Origin: Xanthomonas euvesicatoria pv. euvesicatoria
Lineage (GTDB): Bacteria; Pseudomonadota; Gammaproteobacteria; Xanthomonadales; Xanthomonadaceae
DNA length: 64,000 bases
Reading direction: 5' to 3'
Assembly (NCBI RefSeq): GCF_020880415.1
Contig: NZ_JAJIUJ010000119.1
Coordinates: 186,001 to 250,000, forward strand
A program made the translations under genes and the position numbers. Below are positions 2,189 to 5,408 of the stretch, one piece after another. Within the stretch, counting starts at the first letter, position 1. Each line of letters opens with the position of its first letter. A model generated the notes under the pieces. It was given only the letters and a program-made list of their open reading frames with translations. It did not search any database and was not told where the DNA came from.

Positions 2189-2212
2189 TCTGGTTAACCG
2201 GTGGCATTGCGC
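2189..2212 (+). promoter_or_regulatory. Operator-like site for the cluster LacI regulator, upstream of the GH43 gene
   Basis: The core CTGGTTAACCGGT at 2190-2202 sits 51 bases before the GH43 start codon. The stretch TCTGGTTAACCGGTGGCATT continues as GCGC and matches the site before kduI (5385-5408, opposite strand) at 23 of 24 positions. A central CG within ACCGGT is usual for LacI-family operators. Binding by the product at 3979-5037 is inferred. Confidence 0.7.
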
Positions 2213-2253
2213 GCCATCGTGGTAAAGCCCGGCATCCGGGACTAGGAGAGAGC

Positions 2254-3837
2254 ATGCGTGTGCGTCCCATTTCATCCCGATGGCGTTGGCCGATGGCCGG
2301 CGGCTTGCTGCTGTGCGCCGGCCTGAGCGCTGCGGCGGACTGGAAGCGCGGTATCGAGCACCAGCGCATCGCCGACCAGGGCGATGGCAGCTTTCTCAAT
2401 CCGGTGCTGGCCGGCGACCATCCCGACCCGTCGGTGCTCAAGGATGGCGATGATTACTACCTCACGCTGTCTTCGTTCGATGCCTACCCGGGCCTGCCGA
2501 TCTGGCACTCGCGCGATCTGGTCAACTGGCAGCCGCTGGGCCACGCCATCACCCAGAACGTGGGCGCGATCTGGGCACCGGACCTGATCAAGCACGGCAA
2601 GCGCTACTACATCTACTTCCCGGCGCGGCGCGGCGACCAGGGCGAGCGCAGCAATTTTGTGGTCTGGGCCGACGACATCAAAGGCCCGTGGAGCGCGCCG
2701 ATCGACATCGGCCTGGGCAAATACATCGACCCCGGCCATGCAGTGGGCGAGGACGGCAAGCGTTACCTGTTCCTGAGCGGCGGCGATTACGTGCAGCTGT
2801 CCGATGACGGCCTGAAGGTGGTCGGCACCCCCAAGCACGTCTACGACGGCTGGAAATATCCGGAAAGCTGGGACGTGGAAGGCTACGCCCAGGAAGGCCC
2901 CAAGATCACCCGCCACAACGGCTGGTACTACATGACCACCGCCGTGGGCGGAACCGCCGGCCCGCCGACCGGGCACATGGTGATCACTGCGCGTTCGCGC
3001 TCGATCCACGGCCCCTGGCAGAACGCGCCCAACAACCCGATCACCCGCACCAGGAGCGCGCAGGAGCCGTGGTGGTCGCGCGGCCACGCCACCCTGGTGG
3101 AGGGCACCGACAAGCGCTGGTGGATGCTCTACCACGGCTACGAAAACGGCTACTGGACGCTAGGCCGGCAGGCGCTGCTGGACCCGATCGAATGGACGCC
3201 CGATGGCTGGTTCGTCGCCAAGGGTGGGGACCTGGGCACGCCGCTGAAAAAGCCCAGTGGGCAGGCCCTGCCGCACGGGTTGGCGTTGTCGGACGATTTC
3301 CGCGCCAGCACGCTCGGCCCGCAGTGGGCGTTCTTCAATCCGGCCGCCGACGAGGCCAAGCGCCTGCAGGTGGGCAATGGCGTGTTGCGGCTGCAGGGCA
3401 AGGGCAGCGCGCCGCGCGACGCTTCGCCGCTGACGGTGATCGCCACCGACCCGGCCTACCAGTTCGAAGTGCAGATGACCGTGTCACCGGGCGGACAGGG
3501 CGGGGCGTTGCTGTTCTACAGCGACAAGCTCTATGCCGGCGTCGGCAGCAATGGGCAACAGTTCGTCATGCATCGCTACGGCGAGGAACGCCCGGCCACG
3601 CTGGCGCCCAGCACCAACGGCGGCACGCTATGGCTGCGCGTCACCAACAACCGCCACATCGTCACCATTCACAGCAGCACCGATGGCAAGGCCTGGACCA
3701 AGTACCCGGTGCAGATGGAAGTGTCCGGTTACCACCACAACGTGGCCGGCAAGTTCCTGGCCCTGAAGCCGGCGCTGTATGCCGCAGGCCCCGGCCAGGT
3801 GGAATTCCGCAATTTCCGCTACCGCGCCCTGGACTGA
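2254..3837 (+). CDS. Secreted glycoside hydrolase family 43 protein with C-terminal beta-sandwich domain
   Basis: A 527-residue protein. The signal peptide ends near residue 28 (GLSAAA). The five-bladed GH43 domain follows from about 45 to 350, with the expected catalytic triad: Asp58 in DHPDPS (base), Asp159 in YIDPGH (pKa modulator) and Glu214 in YAQEGP (acid). Residues 350-527 look like a concanavalin-like/DUF1349 sandwich (LSDDFRASTLGPQWAFF). GH43 members are arabinofuranosidases, arabinanases, xylosidases or exo-galactanases, and the exact activity cannot be read here. Pectin side-chain trimming fits the neighbours. The ATG at 2254 follows TAGGAGAGAGC, so the longer upstream frame is not used. 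The gene has its own operator-like site. Confidence 0.88.
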   Translation: MRVRPISSRWRWPMAGGLLLCAGLSAAADWKRGIEHQRIADQGDGSFLNPVLAGDHPDPSVLKDGDDYYLTLSSFDAYPGLPIWHSRDLVNWQPLGHAITQNVGAIWAPDLIKHGKRYYIYFPARRGDQGERSNFVVWADDIKGPWSAPIDIGLGKYIDPGHAVGEDGKRYLFLSGGDYVQLSDDGLKVVGTPKHVYDGWKYPESWDVEGYAQEGPKITRHNGWYYMTTAVGGTAGPPTGHMVITARSRSIHGPWQNAPNNPITRTRSAQEPWWSRGHATLVEGTDKRWWMLYHGYENGYWTLGRQALLDPIEWTPDGWFVAKGGDLGTPLKKPSGQALPHGLALSDDFRASTLGPQWAFFNPAADEAKRLQVGNGVLRLQGKGSAPRDASPLTVIATDPAYQFEVQMTVSPGGQGGALLFYSDKLYAGVGSNGQQFVMHRYGEERPATLAPSTNGGTLWLRVTNNRHIVTIHSSTDGKAWTKYPVQMEVSGYHHNVAGKFLALKPALYAAGPGQVEFRNFRYRALD

Positions 3838-3965
3838 CCGTTCTGCATCGGCGGGCATGTCGTGGCGCTGCCTGCTGTGGCGGGCCCGTCACGGCGGACC
3901 CGGTGCAGCGGCAGGCTTCGCTCAGGTCTGCCGGCCGTCGGGCCGGTAGAATCCAATCAACTTTA

Positions 3966-3978
3966 CTGGTTGACCGCT
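3966..3978 (+). promoter_or_regulatory. Operator-like site on the start codon of the LacI regulator
   Basis: CTGGTTGACCGCT differs from the GH43 and kduI cores at two positions and keeps the central CG. It ends one base before the regulator's ATG at 3979. A bound repressor here would block translation initiation or early elongation, so autoregulation is the natural reading. This is the weakest of the three copies. Confidence 0.5.
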
Positions 3979-5037
3979 ATGCCCGCCCGCAAGATGCCTG
4001 AAGAGGGAATGCCTGGCCTGCCGAAGGGTCGGGTCGCAACGATCAACGACATCGCGCGGATGTCGGGCGTGTCCAAGAAGACCGTCTCGCGGATCATCAA
4101 CAATTCGCCGCTGGTGCGGCAGGACACGCGCGAGAAGGTCGAGGCGCTGATGCGCGAGGTCGGCTATGCGCCGGATCCGCTCGCGCGCGGGCTGGCGTTC
4201 CGCCGTTCGTTCCTGATCGGCATGGTCTACGACAACCCCACCGCGCAATACATCGTGGACATGCAGTACGGCGCGCTGGACGCGCTGCGCGGTTCCAGCT
4301 TCGAACTGGTGGTGCACCCCTGCGACAGCCGCAGTCCCGGCTATATCGAAGGCGTGCGCCGCTTTGCGCAGGCGCAGAAGCTGCACGGCGTGATCCTGGT
4401 GCCACGCGCCTCCGAAGACCAGGCGCTGGCCGACATGCTGGCCGAGATCGGTTGCCGCTACACCCGCATCGCCTCGATCGCGCTGGACACCACCTCGCAG
4501 ACGGTGATCACCCACGACCGCGACGGGGCAGCGGAGGCGGCCGATTACCTGCTTTCGCTGGGCCACCGCGACATCGCCCTGGTCACCGGCCCCAGCGCCT
4601 ACCGCTCCTCGATCGAGCGCACCTCCGGCTTTGCCGACGCGCTGACCCGGCGCGGCATCGAACTGCCGCCCGAGCGCATCGTCGAAGCCGGTTACACCTT
4701 CGAATCGGGCGTGGCGGCGGCCGAAAAGCTGCTGCTGGGCAAGAAGCGCCCCACCGCCATCTTCACCGGTAACGACGAAATGGCCGCCGGTATCTACAAG
4801 GTCGCCCTGCGCGCCGGCATCAGTATCCCGCGCCAGCTCTCGGTGATCGGCTACGACGACAGCTCGCTGGCCTCGCGGCTGTGGCCGCCGTTGACCTCGG
4901 TGCGCCGCCACACCCGCGACACCGGCCGCACCGCCGCGGCGATGCTGATCCAGCCCGACAACGCGCCGCAGCTGCCCACCGCCAGCGTGCGGCCGCACCT
5001 GATCGTGCGCGACTCCTGCCAGCCGCCGGAAGATTGA
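3979..5037 (+). CDS. LacI-family transcriptional regulator of the pectin/uronate island
   Basis: A 352-residue protein. The LacI helix-turn-helix is at about residues 18-40 (ATINDIARMSGVSKKTVSRI) with the hinge after it. A periplasmic-binding-protein-like ligand domain fills the rest, including IFTGNDEMAAG and VIGYDDSSLA near the end. The frame is open from 3862, but the ATG at 3979 gives a normal length; ATGs at 3994 and 4009 are alternatives. It lies between GH43 and kduI and carries an operator-like motif on its own start. The likely ligand is a pectin breakdown intermediate such as 2-keto-3-deoxygluconate or galacturonate. That is inferred. Confidence 0.9.
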   Translation: MPARKMPEEGMPGLPKGRVATINDIARMSGVSKKTVSRIINNSPLVRQDTREKVEALMREVGYAPDPLARGLAFRRSFLIGMVYDNPTAQYIVDMQYGALDALRGSSFELVVHPCDSRSPGYIEGVRRFAQAQKLHGVILVPRASEDQALADMLAEIGCRYTRIASIALDTTSQTVITHDRDGAAEAADYLLSLGHRDIALVTGPSAYRSSIERTSGFADALTRRGIELPPERIVEAGYTFESGVAAAEKLLLGKKRPTAIFTGNDEMAAGIYKVALRAGISIPRQLSVIGYDDSSLASRLWPPLTSVRRHTRDTGRTAAAMLIQPDNAPQLPTASVRPHLIVRDSCQPPED

Positions 5038-5068
5038 GCTACTTGGTCCTGGCGGAAGAGGAACAAAG

Positions 5069-5337
5069 CCCCTCTCCCGCCGGGGCGAGAAGGCACAGCT
5101 TGCGCGGCATCGCCGCGCGTGCCTTGGAGCGCCCGCGCCGCTGGCGCGGGCCGGGGCGCGGAGCGGGGGTTGGGGTGAGGGTAAGGCGGCAGGCAGCCAA
5201 TTTAGAAAGCTCAGGCTTGCGCCGGAAGGCAATAGGCCACCACCCACAAAGCAAGCTGTGCTCTTCAACACAGCGCGCAGCCTCGTACCCTCATCCGCCC
5301 CTGCGGGGCACCTTCTCACGATGGGAGAAGGGAGTTG
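5069..5337. repeat. Mosaic of imperfect palindromic intergenic repeats
   Basis: The 420-base gap between the regulator and kduI is largely repeat. It has a CCCCTCTCCCGCCGGGGCGAG element at the left, a GGGGTTGGGGTGAGGGTAAGG element in the middle (about 5164-5187), and CCTCATCCGCCCCTGCGGGG plus the hairpin CCTTCTCACGATGGGAGAAGG at 5288-5331. The same modules recur at 7270-7320 (inverted), 8165-8331 and, more weakly, 53556-53610. The hairpins could act as terminators for upstream genes. Confidence 0.75.
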
Positions 5338-5384
5338 GTAGTCCGTGCGTCCACCGACACCGTCTTTCGTGCACTGCGCAATGA

Positions 5385-5408
5385 CACCGGTTAACCAGAG
5401 TCGGTAGA
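5385..5408 (-). promoter_or_regulatory. Operator-like site upstream of kduI
   Basis: ACCGGTTAACCAG lies at 5386-5398, 60 bases before the kduI start. Read on the minus strand, the longer sequence matches 2189-2212 at 23 of 24 positions, although the surrounding DNA is unrelated. It probably controls kduI-kduD and the genes beyond. Confidence 0.7.

Follow-up and report, generated by a model that had tools for sequence, protein, structure and literature searches.

The 64,000-nucleotide window analysed here (contig NZ_JAJIUJ010000119.1, positions 186,001 to 250,000, of Xanthomonas euvesicatoria pv. euvesicatoria) carries genes of a pectin/uronate island, devoted to pectin-sugar uptake and catabolism, and the 352-residue LacI-family protein encoded at 3979-5037 on the forward strand would in all likelihood be the local repressor of this island, acting through the predicted operator AATGACACCGGTTWACC(A). 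This LacI-type operator is almost letter-identical across Xanthomonas and its relatives, and, judging from sequence comparison, the neighbouring LacI-type repressor very probably binds there. For a plant-pathogenic genus, the proposal defines a testable regulon of pectin-sugar uptake together with exact candidate operators.

A first-pass annotation of the window had pointed to three 13-mer sites, CTGGTTAACCGGT before a GH43 glycosidase gene (2190-2202), its reverse complement ACCGGTTAACCAG before kduI (5386-5398) and CTGGTTGACCGCT on the start of the regulator gene itself (3966-3978), and had proposed from them a LacI regulon with the core A(C/G)CGGT(T/C)AACCAG. The letters and coordinates of the three sites are correct, and the upstream regions of GH43 and kduI do share, as reported, exactly 23 out of 24 bases in GCGCAATG(C/A)CACCGGTTAACCAGA. 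For comparison, 200-bp stretches were drawn from the window in 1971 random pairs; three shared at least 20 bases and none 23, the maximum being 22. The core, however, has to be redrawn. A comparison of kduI upstream regions among relatives reveals that the conserved operator extends leftward of the 13-mer and that its conserved part is ATGACACCGGT, the right arm differing among genera. For example, the block at kduI reads AATGACACCGGTTAACCAG in most Xanthomonas, and ATGACACCGGTTTACCA, ...TTTCCA, ...TTACCA, ...TGTCC or ...TGGTCA in other genera.

A short core spotted by eye needs this widening by cross-genome comparison before its sites are counted. In the source genome (assembly GCF_020880415.1, 5.31 Mb in 121 contigs), the 13-mer has three exact copies, none with one mismatch and 69 with two, and at up to two mismatches it is rarer than its reversed control (43 + 29 against 85 + 62 matches). 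It is a poor probe, and its whole-genome statistics are uninformative. With AATGACACCGGTTAACC at up to three mismatches, six matches are observed in the same genome against none for the control; the three with zero or one mismatch are the sites of kduI, of GH43 and of a TRAP transporter operon, all inside the pectin island, and the other three, a copy at idh among them, carry three mismatches. In the window, the three-mismatch search returns the kduI and GH43 sites only, 0.06 being expected. The genome-wide check suggested at first pass thus says nothing when made with the 13-mer, whereas the widened motif proves to be confined to the island and not scattered. An exact 13-mer upstream of idh, whose product was read by eye as a monomeric isocitrate dehydrogenase (locus L003), was considered as a regulon member and rejected as a chance occurrence, being kept in none of 24 aligned relatives (of 30 loci fetched, 25, own included, could be aligned at the start codon and share one layout, and five could not; five more genomes yielded no locus).

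Confinement to the island is observed throughout the genus. Searched exactly, AATGNCACCGGTTNACC gives 82 matches, covering 35 of 35 Xanthomonas genomes, and none for the control. Most of them (73) lie within 10 kb of the regulator gene, lacI, on its contig, and six more form pairs in three genomes (G010, G012 and G028), assigned by their distance of 3.9 kb, which is the usual one between the TRAP-operon and GH43 sites. The last three, once fetched, were found before kduI (one, 91% identity) and before the hydratase-like gene (two). All 82 matches can accordingly be assigned to the pectin island by place, spacing or content. At the family level, ATGACACCGGTTWMC occurs in 66 of 178 genomes and its control in none. 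A search with the LacI protein was also made in 149 of these genomes, taking as an orthologue any match of at least 64% identity (the next matches have 55% and 42%). Here, the motif is present in 56 of the 59 genomes with an orthologue and in 0 of the 90 without one, and in the three exceptions (G061, G103 and G154) the fetched stretches hold the regulator without the island genes. Moreover, in the 56 genomes where the place of lacI is known, 94 of 97 matches lie within 12 kb of it, a count that leaves out 17 matches in 10 genomes outside the LacI-protein search. Of the other three, one is at the TRAP operon, which in that genome (G008) is on a different contig, one precedes a carboxylesterase gene whose product is 68% identical to one adjoining the island studied here (G148) and one precedes a TonB-dependent receptor gene (G051). 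In this last genome, two operator-like sites stand before the receptor gene (L140:1913 and 2001, one of the two matches being shorter), so that the regulon may extend to the outer membrane in this relative.

The same picture is obtained from individual loci. Of 80 named loci (the best 80 of 186 around the protein, a set that overlaps with the genomes above), TGACACCGGT is present in 79, and in 57 of them twice or more; the exception is a 3.8-kb contig, and one other locus has an extra copy of a different form. A footprint set of 61 sequences (the own one and 40 + 20 fetched stretches, two of the latter 20 not being lacI clusters) allowed kduI to be placed in 53 and the hydratase-like gene in 54, although these clusters are not a random sample because they were chosen by their lacI. 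In this set, TGACACCGGT stands before kduI in 52 of 53 cases and before the hydratase-like gene in 53 of 54, one case being inverted. ATGACACCGGT itself is found at 47 of 53 and 52 of 54, respectively; the variant TTGACACCGGT accounts for four more kduI sites and one hydratase-like site, and the inverted kduI site is that of L155. A single stretch, L141, lacks the operator at both places and has sites elsewhere. As a local regulon of the pectin island, the earlier proposal is well supported by the confinement of the widened motif and its co-occurrence with lacI; its list of sites was incomplete because the TRAP-operon site lies outside the window.

The protein at 3979-5037 matches the RbsR, LacI, PurR and CcpA models near full length, as well as solved LacI-family structures; every match is to a LacI-family or sugar-binding model, and it does not belong with the IclR-type KdgR. 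Against the NCBIfam equivalogs (RbsR, GntR, IdnR, PurR, CcpA and others), it falls below the cut-off in 18 of 18 listed families, the best score being 176 bits against a cut-off of 531. Of the 35 genus genomes, own included, 34 encode the regulator at 96-100% identity and the remaining one (G028, 81% complete) has a paralogue only; among the best 80 of 186 named loci, those in this identity range are Xanthomonas. Also, the recognition-helix stretch KKTVSR is kept in 58 of 59 orthologues, with KKTISR in the other. The motif could nonetheless belong to a regulator encoded elsewhere, the adjacent LacI protein controlling something else, and a second conserved element, described below, points to possible control of these promoters by several regulators. 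This possibility is unlikely, given the 94 of 97 matches close to lacI, the absence of the motif from the 90 genomes without a LacI orthologue, and a CG-centred core, as is usual for LacI-family sites in the main text of PMC4052901.

A different matter is the 13-mer CTGGTTGACCGCT at 3966-3978 on the reverse strand, directly before the ATG at 3979, which had been taken as an operator for autoregulation. It is placed where a repressor could act, and 21 of 30 genus loci keep it with at most two mismatches. However, compared with the conserved 17-mer it has 7 mismatches out of 17 by hand count, only the right half matching and the left half missing, and it is not recovered in the three-mismatch search of the window. 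The remaining 9 of 30 genus loci carry three to four mismatches, none of 25 sequences from other genera comes within three, and two-mismatch copies of the 13-mer are at background level. Conservation beside a start codon among close relatives is no evidence for an operator, and the site was rejected as such. Therefore, autoregulation is unsupported, and the argument from placement (promoter, own start, promoter) loses its basis, since it rested on this site. Of the three sites, those of GH43 and kduI exceed chance, whereas that at 3966-3978 does not (69 two-mismatch copies, fewer matches than the reversed pattern). The three-site model in full, with autoregulation through 3966-3978, is consequently improbable. 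The regulator gene has a -10-like TAGAAT at 3947-3952 (forward strand), and this hexamer recurs at most 60 bp ahead of lacI in all 30 genus loci and, outside the genus, in 20 of 25 sequences. In the relative G051, among the fetched clusters scanned, a good site lies about 180 bp before lacI.

The kduI and TRAP-operon sites overlap promoter-like sequence. The kduI operator, AATGACACCGGTTAACCAG at 5380-5398 on the forward strand, overlaps the -35 and the spacer of a promoter at 5381-5410 on the same strand, which is composed of the -35 ATGACA (5381-5386), an 18-bp spacer and the -10 TAGACT (5405-5410). In an independent promoter scan of 2000-5500, this promoter is the sole match (0.4 expected), and in most relatives the ATGACA that opens the block is separated by 17-19 bp from a downstream TAGAAT, TAGACT or comparable hexamer. 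The third strong site, C25:184307-184325 (AATGACACCGGTTAACC match 184307-184323), is 1.7 kb before window base 1, and all 35 genus genomes carry this TRAP form. It is intergenic, between a divergent pectin-acetylesterase-like gene and the hydratase-like gene with TRAP dctP, dctQ and dctM. Here, as read by eye, a TTG-type -35 is followed by a spacer that the operator occupies, and the -10 is TATACA in most sequences; the TTTCC forms have a spacer of 15, not 17. The GH43 operator, AATGCCACCGGTTAACCAG at 2190-2208 on the reverse strand, is inverted relative to its gene. The distance from the operator end to the start codon is 60 bp for kduI, 45 bp for GH43 and about 62 bp for the TRAP operon, within the usual LacI-family range, and the three sites share an ACCGGT core with a central CG, which fits a LacI-family operator; such operators are typically even palindromes of 16-22 nt with conserved inverted repeats, located mostly 140-30 bp before the start codon.

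This geometry bears on what the bound protein would do. Some LacI-family proteins activate, and an activator could be considered here too; this is very improbable, because the operators overlap the -35 and the spacer, the classical position for repression. That the block would be a strong promoter alone (-35 and spacer) and no operator is scarcely probable: ATGACA does overlap the kduI -35 and becomes TTGACA, nearer the -35 consensus, in four clusters, but at the TRAP operon the same block sits in the spacer, at GH43 and before kduI in L155 it is inverted, and its exact copies are restricted to the island in 35 genomes. Indeed, relative to the -10 the operator of the TRAP promoter is displaced by 7 bp from that of kduI, and therefore the operator is not simply a promoter element.

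For the repressor encoded at 3979-5037, the predicted mechanism is that a dimer of this LacI-family protein binds the pseudo-palindromic, CG-centred AATGACACCGGTTWACC(A) at the promoter of the hydratase-like gene and TRAP dctPQM, at the kduI promoter and, in some species, in front of GH43. The bound protein would block RNA polymerase at kduI over the -35 and the spacer and at the TRAP operon over the spacer, repression being expected because of these overlaps. A pathway intermediate, likeliest 2-keto-3-deoxygluconate or 5-keto-4-deoxyuronate, would release the repressor, and its accumulation would free TRAP import and the KduI-KduD steps.

Some observations weigh against a local repressor acting in this way. 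LacI-family operators are usually good even palindromes with a CG centre, according to the main text of PMC4052901; in the window's sites the ACCGGT core is symmetric and the outer arms are only weakly palindromic. Some genera have operators that come closer to a palindrome, for example ATGACACCGGTGGTCAT and ATGACACCGGTAGTCAT, both odd-length. Also, kduI is present in 53 of the 149 genomes and the LacI orthologue in 53 of these 53. Co-occurrence cannot separate the regulator from the island because every kduI genome also has the orthologue, with no genome among the 149 having kduI without it. Moreover, the exact GH43 site is absent from 21 of 35 genus genomes. Finally, the promoter of the regulator gene itself has no supported operator, although 72% of LacI-family regulators are predicted to be autoregulated in PMC4052901.

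A second conserved element is observed upstream of the operator when relatives are compared. At kduI it is GCACTGCG, at 5371-5378 on the forward strand, and starts 10 bp before the -35. Its counterpart at the TRAP operon, GCAGTGCA (L031:12292-12299), starts 10 bp before the TTG-type -35. A loose pattern detects an element in the 34-base stretch preceding the operator in 21 of 21 genus sequences, for kduI and the TRAP operon alike. In other genera it does so in 22 of 30 sequences for kduI and 26 of 32 for the TRAP operon, and inspection by eye puts 21 of the 30 and 25 of the 32, respectively, at the fixed place. Because the element keeps its place relative to the -35 in both promoters, though the operator shifts between them, a second regulator is proposed. 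We tentatively suggest a dual control of the two main island promoters, in which the LacI operator would be combined with a regulator binding GC(A/G)N(C/T)GC(A/G), perhaps an activator or co-repressor responding, jointly with the LacI protein, to signals from the plant cell wall. In the source genome, the TRAP-operon form of the element has 48 + 33 matches against 11 + 7 for the control; two of the four next-best matches precede peptidase-like and TonB-receptor-like frames (by eye), and no clear regulon emerges. An IclR-type site is one candidate identity considered for the element. The 5' leader of the TRAP operon (L031:12353-12364) holds the upstream element in inverted form, GGCAGTGCAACA, with a similar one in several relatives by eye.

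In comparison with known systems, the E. coli regulators GntR and IdnR, also of the LacI family, have an operator with the same ACCGGT core. However, they control gluconate and idonate genes, and the regulator described here is far below the NCBIfam cut-offs of both. The xyl-box of the LacI-type XylR differs from the pectin-island operator. Within the same genus, XylR of the Xanthomonas xylan loci is likewise a LacI-type protein that represses a locus for plant cell-wall sugar (PMC7831014 and PMC13282271), although the pathway is different. The gammaproteobacterial IclR-type KdgR also controls pectin and oligogalacturonate genes; nonetheless, it is of another protein family and binds another motif, RWWGAAACGNCGTTTCAKKA (PMC8222616, text available), and the name covers as well the hrp repressor KdgR of Xanthomonas oryzae. 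A further parallel is with the local sugar regulons of the LacI family, including the LacI-type ExuR, KdgR, UxaR and UxuR (PMC4052901, main text), which share local control of uronate genes by a CG-centred site tens of bp upstream. The main text of that work does not contain the word Xanthomonas, and the regulon may already be listed in its supplement or in RegPrecise, which are beyond this comparison. XylR, KdgR and polygalacturonate-induced receptors are described for Xanthomonas (PMC1790865, PMC3551730, PMC7831014, PMC8222616 and PMC13282271, text available), and no description of the pectin-island regulon was found in the literature covered, RegPrecise and most subscription papers being outside the search.

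The island genes of the window listed here are all on the forward strand and include the TRAP transporter genes for DctQ (256-777, Pfam PF04290) and DctM (777-2060, profile matches), belonging to the operon whose operator precedes the window, the GH43 glycosidase gene (2254-3837, Pfam PF04616), kduI (5459-6313, NCBIfam NF002091, above cut-off) and kduD (6496-7251, TIGR01832, above cut-off). Before the window, the divergent gene resembles the pectin acetylesterase PaeX (373 bits, under the NCBIfam cut-off of 550), and the hydratase-like gene has a weak similarity to 2-keto-4-pentenoate hydratase (31.7 bits against a cut-off of 350) and no Pfam match. For GH43, the inverted operator form (AATGCC...) is exact in 14 of 35 genus genomes, and in those without it the GH43 leader differs. 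A 22-row tree requires three changes for the gain or loss of this site, and, with 5 of 19 inner branches well supported, it does not settle the history. Many leaders without the operator carry, just before GH43, an inverted repeat GGCCGACG...CGTCGGCC, imperfect in some (L096, L098-L103, L107-L110 and L113). After kduI and kduD, an RpiB/LacAB-like isomerase is encoded at 7485-8147 (NF006753, a model labelled only as hypothetical protein), and this sugar may thus have two isomerases.

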